Shown here: piece by piece, positions 8,834 through 24,964 of the stretch
How positions within the stretch are numbered: the stretch's first letter is position 1
Layout of the letters: every line of letters begins with the position of its first letter
Source: Candidatus Gastranaerophilales bacterium
Lineage (GTDB): Bacteria > Cyanobacteriota > Vampirovibrionia > Gastranaerophilales > Gastranaerophilaceae
Assembly (NCBI GenBank): GCA_944323365.1
Contig: CALUSG010000009.1
Span: 1 to 35,510, forward strand
DNA length: 35,510 nucleotides
Direction: 5' to 3'
The notes under the pieces: model-generated
Told to the model about the DNA's origin: nothing
Databases searched by the model: none
What the model saw: the letters and a program-made list of their open reading frames with translations, nothing else
Program-made: the position numbers and the translations under genes

Positions 8834-8850
8834 TTAAATTGGAGGTATAT

Positions 8851-9549
8851 ATGAAGAGAGTTTTAGGTTTTACTTTAGCAGAAGTTTTAATAACATTAGG
8901 AATAATTGGTATAGTCGCAGCAATTGTAATGCCAACATTGATATTCGACAACCAAAAAAATATTATAGAAGCACGTGTAGGGCAAACATACTCAACATTA
9001 GCCCAAGCTGCTGAAATGTCAGAAATTGATAACAGTAAAATTGAATATTGGGACACTTCATTGAATTCACAACCATTTTTTGAAAAATATATTTTGCCTT
9101 ATCTAAAAGGTGCATCTTATTGTGGATCAGGTAATAATGCATCTAATACGGAAAAATGCGGGTATGGGGTTAGTCTTTATGGTGTATCATATGCTTTAAG
9201 TAATGGCTCAACTGTTTCTTTCGTAAGCAGTGCACAACGTCAAGCAAGAGCCGGAGATTTAGGCTCAATTGTTATAGATGGTAATGGTGCCGAAGGCCCA
9301 AACTCTTTAGGTATGGATGCTCATTATTTTGAATTGCGTGATGACGGATTTCAGCCATTTGCAGCAGGATTAGGCATTTCAAGAGAAGATATTTTAAATG
9401 GTACGACCGTTAATATCGAAGGTAAAAATGAAACCGTTGCATGTAAATTAGATAAAGGCGATGATGATGACCTATATTATCGTCACGGTTGCACGCTGCT
9501 GTTCGTTATGGACGGTATGACTTTTAAAGATGATTATCCTTGGAAATAA
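8851..9549 (+). CDS. Type II secretion/type IV pilus pseudopilin-like protein
   Basis: The 232-residue protein begins with a short basic leader (MKRVLG) followed by the prepilin motif FTLAEVLITLGIIGIVAAIVMPTLI. Cleavage after Gly6 would expose Phe1, with the conserved Glu at +5. The globular part has six Cys (for example SYCGS, EKCGYG, VACK, HGCTLL), suggesting disulfides outside the cytoplasm. The start is fixed by GGAGG (8841-8845); an in-frame TTG at 8839 is upstream of that site. It has its own promoter and terminator, away from any pilus assembly genes, so it is probably one of several scattered minor pilins or T2SS-like pseudopilins. Confidence 0.85.
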   Translation: MKRVLGFTLAEVLITLGIIGIVAAIVMPTLIFDNQKNIIEARVGQTYSTLAQAAEMSEIDNSKIEYWDTSLNSQPFFEKYILPYLKGASYCGSGNNASNTEKCGYGVSLYGVSYALSNGSTVSFVSSAQRQARAGDLGSIVIDGNGAEGPNSLGMDAHYFELRDDGFQPFAAGLGISREDILNGTTVNIEGKNETVACKLDKGDDDDLYYRHGCTLLFVMDGMTFKDDYPWK

Positions 9550-19359: not shown

Positions 19360-21822
19360 TTATTCTCTAAATGTTATATCAGCATAGGTTTTTTGCAGTT
19401 TTTCTCTGACAGACTGCATTTGTTTTTCAATAATTTCATCTGTCAATGTAGCATTTTCGTCTTGCATTTTTATGCGGAATGCTAAACTTTTATATCCTTT
19501 ATCCACGTGTTCTCCCTGATATACGTCAAATATTTCACTGCCTTTATAAATATTTTGTTGAACAGCAGTTTTAATAACTTTTTGTATTTCATCAAAAGAA
19601 ATATTTTCATTTATTATAAATGCTAAATCTCGACGGACTTCCGGGAATTGCGGAAGTTTTTTAAAACGCGGCACTGTTTCTTTTATTGCTAAAAATAAGT
19701 TATCAAGACAAAGTTCAAACATATACGCATCCTGGTTAAGTTTTAGTTTATCACGTAAAATCGGATGAATTTGTCCAAAATATCCTATAGGTTCCGGCTT
19801 TTTGCCTAAAAGTAAAATTTCAGCAGTTCTGTAAGGGTGCATATAATCTTTTGTTTGGTCGTGAGAAATTTTTATACGTCTTTCTACACCTAATTCTTTA
19901 AATATTTGTTCAAAAATACCTTTTACGGTATAAAAATCTAAACTTCCTGCAGGCTGCCATTTTGAATTTTCTATTTCACCGGTCATCACACCTGCAAGAA
20001 TTTTTGACTCTTTTACTCCTGAGAATTTTTCATCTGCAGGTGCCACAATTTCATATGTTTTCCCTATTTCATAAGCCCAAAAATTCTTTTGGCCGTTGTC
20101 AAAATTGCTTTTCATAACATTCAAAACGCTTGCAGCAAGGGTTTGTCTGAGCATAGCATATTCTTCACTTGCAGGATTTTCGACATATACGGCTTTTTCA
20201 GGAGAAAACGGCACTAAATATTTATCAAGTAATGATTTGCCGATTAAAGAACTTGTTATTATTTCGTTTAACCCGCATGCACGCATTAAATGATTTAATT
20301 TAGCCAAAACTTTTTCTTCCAAAGTTATTTCAGGCATTTGGTTTTTATTTGGCAATGTTGGGGCAATTTTGTCATATCCGTTAATTCTTGCAATTTCTTC
20401 AATTAAATCAATTTCTCTTGTTACATCGTAGGCTCTCCAGGACGGAACTAAAAATTTGGCAGCAGCTTCGTTACTACCGAGTTTTTTAAATCCTAAGTGT
20501 TCCAAAATGGTTATACATTTTTGCGGGTCAATTGAGCAACCTAATATCCTTTTTACCTGGTTAAACCGTAAAGTTATTTCAATATTATCAAGTTTGTTTT
20601 TACCGGTTTCTACAACACCGGTTACTTTAGCGTCTGCAAGTTCTGTCATTAGCTGCATTGCACGCATTAGTGCAGGTTTTACAGCTTCAATATCAACTCC
20701 TCTTTCAAATCTTGAACATGCTTCGCTTTTGTAGCCCACACTTTTGGAATTTTTTCTATTGCTGACAGGCGGAAAATATGCAGCTTCAAGAGCTATTGCT
20801 GTTGTGTTATCGTCTATTTCTGAGTTTTCTCCGCCAAAAACTCCTGCGATACATATACCCTTTTCTTTATCTGCAATAAGCACGCTGTCTTTAGTTAAAT
20901 CCCTCTCTATACCATCAAGTGTTACTATTTTTTCACCTTCTTTTGCGTGTCTTATGCATATGTATCCGTCAAGTTTATTCAAATCAAATGCATGGAATGG
21001 AGTGCCATATTCAAGCATAACATAATTTGTTATATCAACTACATTGTTTATTGCTCTAACTCCTGACGCAACTAGTCGTTTTTGCATCCAATCAGGTGAC
21101 GGTTTTATTTTTATATCTTTTAAAATACCTAAAGAATAATATTTACAAGTGTCATTATCAATTATTTCTACTTTAAATTCATCAGTTGATAAATCTTTAG
21201 TGCATTCAATTGGGTTAAACTTTAGTGGTTTGTTGAAAATAGCACTTAACTCTCTTGCAACACCTAGAACTGACATTTCATCGCCTCTGTTTGCAGTTGG
21301 AGCAACAGATAAAACATAATCTTTTTCAAATCCTAAAACATCTTCAACATTAAGCCCAATTTGAACATCAGAAAAAATTCTGTTAAGAATTAAAATGCCG
21401 TCTTCTTCCTGATAATGGCGTTCTGCAACGCCCAGTTCATCAGCAGAACAGAGCATGCCTTGTGATTCAACACCTCTTATCACAGCAGGTGTAAGCGTGA
21501 ACATTTCGCCTGTTTTTCTGTCTAAAACTTGACTTCCAACGCTTGCATATGGAACAATTTGACCTTCTTTTATATTTTGTGCTCCGCAGACTACTGTTTT
21601 AAGCCCTGTGCCTGTATTTACTGTTACAAGATGTAACCTGTCAGAATTCGGGTGATTATCAATTTTTTCTATTTTAACTGTTTTTATATTTGTAAATTTT
21701 GGTTTAACTTCTTCTACGGCTTCGACTTCTAATCCGCTCATTGTAAGCTCGTGTGCTATTTCTTCCGGCTCTTTATCCGATAAATCAACAAATTCATTCA
21801 ACCAGTTCAGTGATACTTGCAT
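19360..21822 (-). CDS. pheT: Phenylalanyl-tRNA synthetase beta subunit
   Basis: PheT pairs with PheS to charge tRNA-Phe and carries the editing site. The 820-residue protein has the EMAP-like tRNA-binding domain (about 40-150; VVCGAQNIKEGQIVPYASVGS), the B3/B4 editing region (about 210-400; GVRAINNVVDITNYVMLEYGTPFHAFD), B5, the catalytic-like core, and the C-terminal anticodon-binding domain (FPEVRRDLAFIINENISFDEIQKVI...). The start is MQVSLNWLNEFV at 21822, behind GAGGGAAG; an upstream in-frame start at 21903 would add an unrelated 27-residue tail. pheS is not adjacent, which is less common. Confidence 0.96.
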   Translation of the reverse strand: MQVSLNWLNEFVDLSDKEPEEIAHELTMSGLEVEAVEEVKPKFTNIKTVKIEKIDNHPNSDRLHLVTVNTGTGLKTVVCGAQNIKEGQIVPYASVGSQVLDRKTGEMFTLTPAVIRGVESQGMLCSADELGVAERHYQEEDGILILNRIFSDVQIGLNVEDVLGFEKDYVLSVAPTANRGDEMSVLGVARELSAIFNKPLKFNPIECTKDLSTDEFKVEIIDNDTCKYYSLGILKDIKIKPSPDWMQKRLVASGVRAINNVVDITNYVMLEYGTPFHAFDLNKLDGYICIRHAKEGEKIVTLDGIERDLTKDSVLIADKEKGICIAGVFGGENSEIDDNTTAIALEAAYFPPVSNRKNSKSVGYKSEACSRFERGVDIEAVKPALMRAMQLMTELADAKVTGVVETGKNKLDNIEITLRFNQVKRILGCSIDPQKCITILEHLGFKKLGSNEAAAKFLVPSWRAYDVTREIDLIEEIARINGYDKIAPTLPNKNQMPEITLEEKVLAKLNHLMRACGLNEIITSSLIGKSLLDKYLVPFSPEKAVYVENPASEEYAMLRQTLAASVLNVMKSNFDNGQKNFWAYEIGKTYEIVAPADEKFSGVKESKILAGVMTGEIENSKWQPAGSLDFYTVKGIFEQIFKELGVERRIKISHDQTKDYMHPYRTAEILLLGKKPEPIGYFGQIHPILRDKLKLNQDAYMFELCLDNLFLAIKETVPRFKKLPQFPEVRRDLAFIINENISFDEIQKVIKTAVQQNIYKGSEIFDVYQGEHVDKGYKSLAFRIKMQDENATLTDEIIEKQMQSVREKLQKTYADITFRE

Positions 21823-21854
21823 TTTCTTCCCTCTTTTTACTTTTATACTCCTAA

Positions 21855-21883
21855 ATTGTATTACAAAATTTCGGGTTTGTAAA
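21855..21883 (-). promoter_or_regulatory. Predicted pheT promoter
   Basis: On the minus strand TTTACA (21883-21878), a 17-base spacer and TACAAT (21860-21855). Each box is five of six to consensus. Confidence 0.6.
21861..21882. promoter_or_regulatory. TTACAAA / TTTGTAA inverted repeat between pheT and the pilin region
   Basis: Seven-base arms (21861-21867 and 21876-21882) flank an eight-base spacer. The repeat overlaps the pheT -35 box and is centred about 51 bases upstream of the start expected from the 21888 promoter. The half-sites recall sites A-D but the spacing is eight bases longer, so the link is uncertain. Confidence 0.35.
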
Positions 21884-21887
21884 ATAA

Positions 21888-21916
21888 TTGCATAATTTGT
21901 CAAAATTTGTTATTAT
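21888..21916 (+). promoter_or_regulatory. Possible upstream promoter of the pilin region
   Basis: TTGCAT (21888-21893), a 17-base spacer and TATTAT (21911-21916). It would drive a transcript with GAAGGAG before the ATG at 21940. It is weaker than the promoter at 22007. Confidence 0.42.
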
Positions 21917-21966
21917 TTGGAAAAAGAAGGAGAAAGCACATGGGAAAAATGAAAAAAACAATAAAC

Positions 21967-21976
21967 GGGGGGGGGG
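21967..21976 (+). repeat. Homopolymeric G10 tract
   Basis: Ten G in a row in an AT-rich region, 31 bases upstream of the -35 box of the perfect promoter and inside the possible upstream extension of the pilin gene. Such tracts change length by slipped-strand mispairing. Confidence 0.95.
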
Positions 21977-22006
21977 CGACTCCTCTAAGTAGGCATAGAG
22001 CGGGAT

Positions 22007-22035
22007 TTGACAGTGCTGTAGAAATAAACTATAAT
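22007..22035 (+). promoter_or_regulatory. Perfect consensus promoter of the pilin gene; leaderless start
   Basis: TTGACA (22007-22012), exactly 17 bases, then TATAAT (22030-22035). The A of the ATG at 22042 is the seventh base after the -10 box, the expected +1. Confidence 0.8.
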
Positions 22036-22041
22036 TCAGAT

Positions 22042-22755
22042 ATGAGAAATTATGGTTCAGAAAAGGGCTTTACTTTAGCCGAGGTATTAATAACACTTGG
22101 AATAATTGGTGTCGTCGCAGCATTAACAATACCGACACTGGTAAAGAATTATCAGGAAAAGGTAATGGTATCAAAAGTTAAACAGGCACATTCTCAGTTG
22201 ATGAATGCAATACAGTTGTATGTGGTGAAAAATAATTGTCAAAATATGTTGTGTTTATTTGATACGAACAAAACTTCGGATGAAGTAGCTGCAGAATTGA
22301 CAACTGTCATAAGAGCAGCAAAAGTATGTAAAGACGGAGATACAGAAAACGCCTGTGTATTATATGCATTGAAGGATAATAAACCTTCTTATAAAGTCGA
22401 TGGCGTGTATGCATCAAGTGATGGATTTACTACTCAGGGACGAATATATTTACCAAACGGAATGCTTTTTAATATACGTCAAGTTTCACAATGTCCATAT
22501 ACATACGAATCAATAATACGCGATGAAAACGGATATGAGATTGATCGTGTTGAATCGGTTAGTCATAATTGTGCACATGTTTATGTGGATATAAACAATA
22601 CTGCAGGACCGAATCAATTTGGTGCGGACGTATACAGATATGATGTAAAAGACACAGGAAAAATAGAACCTTATGATAAGAAATTATTAAATAATGCACT
22701 TTTGTATAATAAAATAGAATATACGCCGTATAATATTGGCGATCCCGTGGAGTAA
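22042..22755 (+). CDS. Type IV/type II prepilin-like protein
   Basis: From 22042 the product is 237 residues: a nine-residue leader (MRNYGSEKG) and then the prepilin segment FTLAEVLITLGIIGVVAALTIPTLVKNY, with cleavage after Gly9 and Glu at +5. The mature part has paired Cys (NNCQNMLC, KVCKDGDTENAC, SQCPY, HNCAHVY) and a Lys/Asp/Tyr-rich end. The 22042 start is preferred because a perfect promoter puts +1 on this ATG and gives a normal leader length. A longer in-frame start at 21940, with its own ribosome-binding site, is an alternative that depends on the G10 tract. The protein is likely a surface or periplasmic minor pilin. Confidence 0.8.
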   Translation: MRNYGSEKGFTLAEVLITLGIIGVVAALTIPTLVKNYQEKVMVSKVKQAHSQLMNAIQLYVVKNNCQNMLCLFDTNKTSDEVAAELTTVIRAAKVCKDGDTENACVLYALKDNKPSYKVDGVYASSDGFTTQGRIYLPNGMLFNIRQVSQCPYTYESIIRDENGYEIDRVESVSHNCAHVYVDINNTAGPNQFGADVYRYDVKDTGKIEPYDKKLLNNALLYNKIEYTPYNIGDPVE

Positions 22756-22879: not shown

Positions 22880-24964
22880 ATGGCTAGAAAAATTCCATTA
22901 GAGAAAATTAGAAACATTGGTATTGCCGCTCACATCGATGCCGGTAAAACCACTACAACAGAGCGTATTTTGTTCTATACAGGTAAAACTCACAAAATCG
23001 GTGAAGTTCACGATGGTGCAGCAGTTACAGACTTTATGGAACAAGAACGAGAAAGAGGTATTACTATTCAATCAGCTGCTGTAACAGCATCTTGGAAAGG
23101 TCATCAAATTAACGTTATTGATACTCCGGGACACGTTGACTTTACTATTGAAGTTGAACGTTCTTTACGTGTATTGGATGGTGTTGTTGCTGTATTTTGT
23201 GCAGTAGGCGGTGTTCAATCTCAATCAGAAACTGTTTGGAGACAAGCTAACAGATATGAAGTTCCTCGTATGGTTTTTGTTAACAAAATGGACAGAACCG
23301 GTGCTAACTTCTATCGTGTAGTTGATCAAATTAAAAATCGTTTAGGAGCTAATGCTCATCCTATAAGACTTCCTATCGGTGCAGAAGATCAATTCAAAGG
23401 TCTTATTGATTTGTTTGAAATGAAAGCTTATATCTATACAAATGATTTAGGTACAGATATTAAAGTTGAAGATATTCCGGCCGATATGCTTGAAAAAGCT
23501 CAACAATACAGAGATGCCCTGGTTGAAGCCATTGCGGAATGCGATGATGACGTCATGATGAAATATCTTGAAGGTGAAGAACTTTCAATTGACGAATTGA
23601 AAAAAGGCTTAAGAAAAGGCGTTTGCGATAACAAAATCGTTCCGGTAACATGCGGTACAGCTTTCAAAAACAAAGGTGTTCAATTATTATTGGATTCAAT
23701 TGTTGAATTAATGCCGTCACCGGTTGATGTTAAAGCTATTGAAGGTGAACTTGAAGACGGTACAAAAGTTGAAAGACATTCTTCTGATGATGAACCGTTC
23801 TCAGCACTTGCTTTTAAAGTTATGACAGACCCTTATGTAGGCCGCTTAACATTCTTAAGAATATATTCAGGTAAATTAACTTCAGGTTCTTATGTTCTTA
23901 ATGCTACAAACGGCAAAAAAGAACGTATTTCAAGACTTGTTCAAATGTATGCTGATCAAAGAATTGAAGAAAATGAAGTTTATGCCGGCGATATTTGTGC
24001 AGCTGTAGGTTTAAAAGATACTACAACAGGTGATACATTATGTGATGAAAAATCACCTATTATCCTTGAAAGAATGGTATTCCCTGAACCTGTAATTTCA
24101 GTTGCTATTGAGCCAAAAACAAAAGCTGATCAGGATAAAATGGGTATCGCTCTTCAAAAACTTGCAGAAGAAGATCCATCATTCAAAGTTAAATCAGATA
24201 ATGAAACAGGTCAGACAATTATTTCAGGTATGGGTGAACTTCACTTAGATATTATTGTTGACCGTTTGTTACGTGAATTTAAGGTTGATGCAAATGTTGG
24301 TAAACCGCAGGTTGCATATCGTGAAACTATCCGCGGCAACGCTGATCAGGATTCTAAATTTATCCGTCAATCAGGTGGTAAAGGTCAATACGGTCACGTT
24401 AAGATTAAAATTTCACCGGCTGATGAAAATGCAGGATTTGTATTTGAAAACAAAATTGTCGGTGGTGCTATACCTAAAGAATATATCGAACCTGCAAGAA
24501 AAGGTATGGAAGAAGCCCTTGAAGGCGGTATATTAGCCGGCTTCCCGATGATTGACGTTAAGGTTGAACTTTATGATGGTTCTTACCACGAAGTTGACTC
24601 ATCTGAAATGGCATTCAAAATCGCCGGATCTATGGCTATTAAAGAAGGCTGCCGTAAAGCGAAACCTTGTATTCTTGAACCTATGATGAAAGTTGAAATT
24701 GAAGTACCTGAAGAAAATACAGGCGATATTATAGGTGATATTTCATCTCGTCGTGGACGTGTTGAAGGTATGGAAATTATTGAAGGTACCGGAATACAAA
24801 AAATTAATGCGATTGTTCCTTTGGCTGAAATGTTCGGATATGCAACGGATATCCGTTCAAAAACTCAAGGCCGTGGTACTTTCTCAATGGAATTTAAATG
24901 CTATGAGCAAGTTCCTGCTAATATCGAAAAAGAAATTATCGAAAAATCAGGGGTAAGCAAGTAG
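22880..24964 (+). CDS. fusA: Elongation factor G
   Basis: EF-G drives GTP-dependent translocation on the ribosome. The 694-residue protein has the G1 motif AHIDAGKTT, the switch region [10 protein letters not shown]3 DTPGHVDF and G4 NKMDR, followed by domains II-V (for example [67 protein letters not shown]). AAGGGAAAA precedes the start. It stands apart from the str genes (rpsL, rpsG, tuf), with its own promoter and terminator. Its codon use is slightly more GC-rich than the surface genes, as expected for high expression. Confidence 0.98.

Follow-up and report, generated by a model that had tools for sequence, protein, structure and literature searches.

Why should a run of ten G stand just upstream of a pilin-like gene in AT-rich DNA? 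The question is raised by a stretch of 35,510 nucleotides (hereafter the window), which is the whole of contig C9 and part of a 1.70-Mb draft genome (G000) of a Candidatus Gastranaerophilales bacterium. A first-pass annotation, made from the letters, found the run striking and proposed that slippage within it could switch the amount or form of the pilin, either through the reading frame or through the spacing of a regulator to a promoter. The run, at 21967-21976, is indeed the sole run of at least eight G in the window, where 0.07 matches would be expected. The best-studied cases of frame switching by poly-G tracts are in pathogens, Neisseria and Campylobacter among them. We hold, with a probability of roughly 85%, that this tract works as a slippery frame switch within the translated leader of a gene for a type IV pilin-like protein, and that it is one of about 28 in the genome. 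The reading is built on the observed tract, the open frames, their phasing, the stops, the length variation between species and the conservation of a promoter.

The gene and its tract lie on the plus strand between two profile-confirmed neighbors, pheT on the minus strand (19360-21903) and fusA on the plus strand (22880-24964). A distal predicted promoter, P1 (21888-21916), was assigned by eye as TTGCAT (21888-21893), 17 bases and TATTAT (21911-21916); the same TTGCAT-N17-TATTAT is found in the syntenic copies of genomes G006 and G008. A Shine-Dalgarno (SD) sequence, AAGGAG (21927-21932), stands 7 bases 5' of the distal ATG, which together with the leader codons ahead of the tract (MGKMKKTIN) occupies 21940-21966. 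Past the tract comes TAAGTAG (21986-21992), followed by an internal promoter, P2 (22007-22035), which matches the consensus at 12/12 positions, with TTGACA at 22007-22012, 17 bases and TATAAT at 22030-22035. Its -35 begins 31 bases beyond the last G, as the first-pass annotation had it. That annotation missed an in-frame proximal ATG (22042-22044), exactly six bases past the -10 of P2, which is a probable leaderless start reading MRNYGSEKG^FTLAE. The prepilin-peptidase site GFTLAE and the start of the mature pilin are at 22066-22083. In its long form the gene runs from 21940 to 22755 and encodes 271 aa; the short form starts at 22042.

The product carries the [G/A]FTxxE site and the hydrophobic N-terminal helix of type IV pilins, and profile searches place it above the cut-offs of PF07963 (24.7 bits, cut-off 21.2) and TIGR02532 (24.5, cut-off 16.3). 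Beyond this N-terminal methylation motif, little in it is recognizable by profiles. The genome also encodes a prepilin peptidase (PF01478, one copy) and assembly-type ATPases (PF00437, four copies), all over cut-off. A second pilin-like gene in the window (8839-9549, MKRVLGFTLAE) has no tract, and about one third of the pilins in the genome are likewise without one.

The length of the run decides what can be read from the distal ATG. At ten G, the ATG at 21940 reads via MGKMKKTINGGGATPLSRHRAGFDSAVEINYNSDMRNYGSEK into GFTLAEVLITL, and the leader peptide of the long form is MGKMKKTINGGGATPLSR. At nine G, the translation is GGG-RLL-stop, ending at the TAA of 21986-21988, and at eleven G reading ends at the TAG of 21990-21992. 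The first-pass description of all three frames was thus correct. As at contingency loci, the repeat lies in the 5' part of a reading frame and its length decides between product and early stop.

Does this phasing hold beyond a single locus? The comparison covered 150 distinct tract-pilin loci, drawn from about 20 genomes, with start codons assigned by rule as an ATG with a Shine-Dalgarno sequence. In 146 of the 150, no stop interrupts the pilin frame between tract and pilin, where base shuffling gives an expectation of 13.8, and the other two frames are open in 0 and 2. Over the 150 spacers there are 15 stops in the pilin frame versus 822 and 552 in the other frames. Locus counts are not independent, and non-redundant sets, from which spacers more than 80% alike were removed, were therefore used as well; 86 of 90 such spacers are open in the pilin frame (7.7 expected). 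Leaders with an SD-led ATG precede 135 of the 150 tracts, and the distance from ATG to tract is a multiple of three in 111 of 130 G-tract loci. Within the window's genus (g1), joining the SD-led ATG to the pilin takes a tract length of 1 mod 3 (ten G) at 46 of 60 non-redundant loci, across spacers that range from 26 to 308 nt; the phase differs in other genera. Spacers overall measure 26 to 317 nt, and one, in G004, is open for 600 nt through interspersed repeats.

In 59 of 83 non-redundant spacers, both off frames run into a stop within 10 codons (22.6 expected), and the bases that form these stops, TAAGTAG in the window, rank with the best-conserved positions past the tract. These results bear on the suspicion, raised by the first-pass annotation as a possible refutation, that the tract length reflects an error of sequencing or assembly. 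Homopolymers are error-prone and contig C34 ends within a G run; against this, many independent assemblies and genera show the same arrangement, and their frames and stops are fitted to the tract. The frame statistics make an artefact very unlikely, at most the exact count would be off, and we give that explanation next to no weight. The end of C34 (L100) lies ahead of a pilin, and the contig break could reflect mixed tract lengths in the sampled population.

The leader itself is kept open, while its amino acids are hardly conserved. Its codons have little third-position excess, which fits a discarded leader yet is weaker proof of translation and counts to that extent against a frame switch; with this signal weak, stop avoidance served as the test of translation instead. 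Leader length counts against the switch as well. Known type IV pilin leaders span 6-26 aa (PMC4471445), a range that includes the short P2 form of 9 aa, whereas the in-frame leaders reach 43 aa in the window's long form and more than 200 in G004. Five loci (L264 in G004, L132, L134, L149 and L173) have leaders of 90-200 codons, open in the pilin frame and made up largely of interspersed palindromic-type repeats (..ELVSASHNKKIPKLVRNDK.., ..VILNLFQDL..). A CTCCTC downstream of the G run is a candidate hairpin partner; changes there are mostly C/T, so that pairing with G would survive.

A frame switch implies a tract of variable length, and lengths do differ between loci and between species. Lengths across the loci are 8 (1 locus), 9 (101), 10 (32), 11 (9), 12 (3), 13 (3) and 15 (1), with a mode of 9; each is an assembly consensus, one length per locus and one genome per species, and short tracts are undercounted because, beyond the window's genome, most loci were retrieved with a pattern that demanded nine G. 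Six species have 10, 9, 11, 9, 9 and 8 G at the syntenic pheT-pilin-fusA locus, the difference between relatives at one locus that marks contingency loci. Two paralogues with flanks 99% alike (L056 and L047) have tracts of 10 and 9, as does another pair with flanks 95% alike. Between the frame lock, the stops in both off frames and this syntenic variation, the frame-switch idea of the first-pass annotation is strongly supported by sequence comparison.

As assembled, only 22 of 135 scorable loci, the window's included, are in frame. The 113 that are out of frame count against the frame switch. A rival reading is programmed frameshifting or transcriptional slippage, by which nine G would be the working form and a fixed fraction of product would regain the pilin frame with the DNA unchanged. 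Speaking for it is the dominance of nine G (101 of 150), a length that puts most g1 loci out of frame although their pilin frame is still open. However, lengths vary from 8 to 15, also at the syntenic locus, and the shift needed differs, with 9, 10 and 12 occurring where 11 is needed and some loci already in frame at 9, 10, 11, 13 or 15. Furthermore, nine is likewise the commonest length of the poly-G tracts of Neisseria, whose phase variation is accepted (PMC5953494). A fixed slippery length with a constant shift, as at a programmed site, was not found, and the varied lengths and shifts leave this explanation distinctly improbable.

The internal promoter raises the other possibility. A P2-type score of at least 11 of 12 is found at 65 of 136 loci, a count somewhat inflated by recent paralogues, and replacing codons with synonyms at local usage gives a mean of 11.6 and a maximum of 18. 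Among 17 cluster representatives, the two hexamers of P2 are three times less variable than their surroundings. If the tract acted on transcription, as the regulator-spacing half of the first-pass proposal would have it, its length would set the distance from an upstream regulator to P2. This conservation of P2 beyond codon constraint would suit such a role, and transcriptional homopolymer switches are known, e.g., the opc promoter poly-C (PMC3960869). But about half of the loci have no P2, the distance from tract to P2 differs by locus class (30, 81, 26 and other values, with a range of 26-141 nt), and the reading frame is kept in either case, the pilin frame being open at 76 of 76 loci with P2 and at 70 of 74 without. 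With no fixed distance between tract and promoter, regulator spacing is rejected as the main role and given very little credence. The proposal that pilin amount or form is switchable is supported for the frame and not for the spacing.

At 61 of 76 P2 loci an ATG in the pilin frame lies at offset 6 past the -10, so that its A falls on the expected transcription start. In 573 kb of loci from the genus (the window and L106-L175), genes that lack a Shine-Dalgarno sequence show a peak of -10-like hexamers at -12 relative to their first ATG (33 of 174, against about 6 at other offsets). A peak this sharp suggests that leaderless genes are common in Gastranaerophilales. The ATG at 22042 is thus probably a leaderless start that yields a short prepilin, and since P2 stands exactly 12 bases before the in-frame ATG, at about half of the loci, with the window's among them, an out-of-frame tract probably still leaves the short prepilin to be made.

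One could go further and hold that the pilin comes mainly from the leaderless P2 message, with the leader and tract a minor or decaying N-terminal extension. P2 is near consensus with its ATG at the -12 spacing, leaderless starts look common in the lineage, the short leader is of canonical length, and a locus with a broken tract retains its pilin. Set against these points, the upstream frame is open at every one of the 76 P2 loci, both off-frame stops are conserved, and spacers of 26-38 nt are too short for a P2. We regard this reading as unlikely. The locus with the broken tract (G000:C54:1-420, L099; GGAGGGGGG) is out of frame, while its 311-aa pilin frame is intact and its internal promoter present; it is perhaps fixed in the short form. 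This copy, and the presence of P2 at about half of the loci, do count against a frame switch.

A combination of both starts is also conceivable. With P2 and a canonical short leader of 9 residues versus 43 in the long form, the window locus probably has two starts, of which the tract would control the long one. At each locus of the window's class, a constitutive leaderless short prepilin may be joined by a tract-gated, SD-driven form with the long leader, so that slippage would alter the form or dose of dozens of pilins and not turn them off; we hold this version tentatively, at somewhat less than even odds. Where spacers measure 26-38 nt there is no room for P2, and those loci would be plain on/off switches.

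How widespread is the arrangement? The window's genome contains 30 runs of at least eight G or C, with lengths of 8, 9 or 10 only, a repertoire not seen by the first-pass annotation, which had suggested comparing other pilin loci for G tracts. When each place was read, 28 of the 30 proved to precede a pilin-like gene closely and on the matching strand; of the 45 pilin matches in the genome, most bear a tract. The two exceptions are a G8 at C50:4104 and a run in a radical-SAM gene (L044, C46), where G10 at 1461-1470 is in frame at about codons 21-23 (HLGGGALE). A G010 protein 95% identical to the latter encodes the same glycines without a homopolymer, and the run may be a newly arisen switch or chance. 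Across the family, a G9 with a pilin start 75-105 nt downstream is found in 62 of 288 genomes, representing 12 of the 41 genera sampled, while the reversed control pattern gave 0 matches in the same 288 genomes. The tract-pilin pattern was found in 0 of 94 genomes from other families of the class, and the exact tract element, shared with close relatives labelled Candidatus Gastranaerophilales or uncultured bacterium, had no copy in viral contigs.

Within a genome, the first 25 residues of the pilins are 99% and 84% identical (two sets), after which identity falls to 15-58%. The near-constant start and divergent remainder suggest that the switches select among different fibers or tips.

Several loci depart from the common arrangement. 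A second, unrelated leader family (MEKVI.KAVQQVAPP..) is found on other pilins of the same genome (L031, L033, L054 and L076, on contigs C1, C12, C80 and C62 of G000) and is in frame at C10 and out at C9; its C62 copy (L076) has lost the tract and is fixed in frame. In L039, L043 and L050 (G000:C28, C44 and C68), the tract is about 240 nt 5' of the pilin, inside a small ORF that itself begins leaderless (TTGACA-N17-TAAAAT-N6-ATG) and in one frame continues to the pilin's own SD/ATG, with an overlapping ATGA in L039; this suggests switching via translational coupling. L221 and L229 (G008:C5 and C25) share near-identical sequence from tract to pilin behind two different leaders, one in frame at nine G and the other out, and leaders may recombine at the tract.

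The proposed mechanism would run as follows. Transcripts from P1 would be translated from the SD-led ATG at 21940, and at ten G the ribosome would run through the leader into the pilin, whose leader the prepilin peptidase would then cut off on the cytoplasmic side. Replication slippage to nine or eleven G would bring a stop within five codons past the tract and no pilin from that ATG. At loci like the window's, P2 would start a leaderless mRNA and probably give the short prepilin at any tract length, and what the tract would switch there is the long form or the overall amount of pilin; where P2 is missing, it would turn the pilin fully on or off. With every pilin gene switching on its own, a population would contain many pilin combinations. 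We infer the slippage rate, the expression, the removal of the leader and the use of both starts from sequence features.

By analogy, the mechanism is that of Neisseria pilC and of the contingency loci of Campylobacter jejuni; the target, the lineage, the leader that is open and not conserved, and the internal promoter differ. The pilC1/pilC2 genes of Neisseria carry a genic poly-G/C tract of 9-20 G (PMC5953494), which like the window's is a homopolymer in the frame of a type IV pilus gene, with on/off states set by frame and similar lengths (mode 9). Neisseria switches two PilC proteins in this way, whereas here there are many separate pilin-like subunits, a long leader of weak amino-acid constraint and, at about half of the loci, an internal promoter. 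C. jejuni has 12-29 poly-G/poly-C tracts per genome (PMC4965091) and is alike in its AT-rich genome, its dozens of runs of at least seven G/C, mostly in reading frames, and its frame switches; its tracts are mostly in genes that modify surface structures, while here 28 of 30 are on one protein family, the pilins. The Neisseria opc poly-C is also a homopolymer upstream of a surface-protein gene, but it acts on transcription via the promoter (PMC3960869), and here the reading frame is what is conserved. The pilE/pilS system of Neisseria (PMC5953494) shares a pilin repertoire with a near-constant N-terminus and a variable remainder. There, silent cassettes are recombined into the expressed pilE, whereas the loci described here are each equipped with a promoter, a start and a switch of their own.

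Pilus genes were already noted in the Gastranaerophilales group (PMC5877343). Our literature search found no paper linking Gastranaerophilales to phase variation, and Vampirovibrio-type names gave only an unrelated flagellin survey. The roughly 30 G/C runs of this genome, as read from its sequence, point to surface fibers that switch at random, in a large repertoire that has apparently not been described before. For many such pilins, gene callers will overlook the leader or cut it short, and the finding also points to widespread leaderless genes in the lineage. It would mean that uncultured gut relatives of cyanobacteria practice frame switching on a scale comparable to C. jejuni, aimed almost wholly at pilins. 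If true, the Gastranaerophilales would offer a natural model of how commensals vary their surfaces randomly and in combination, against phages, host immunity or competitors.
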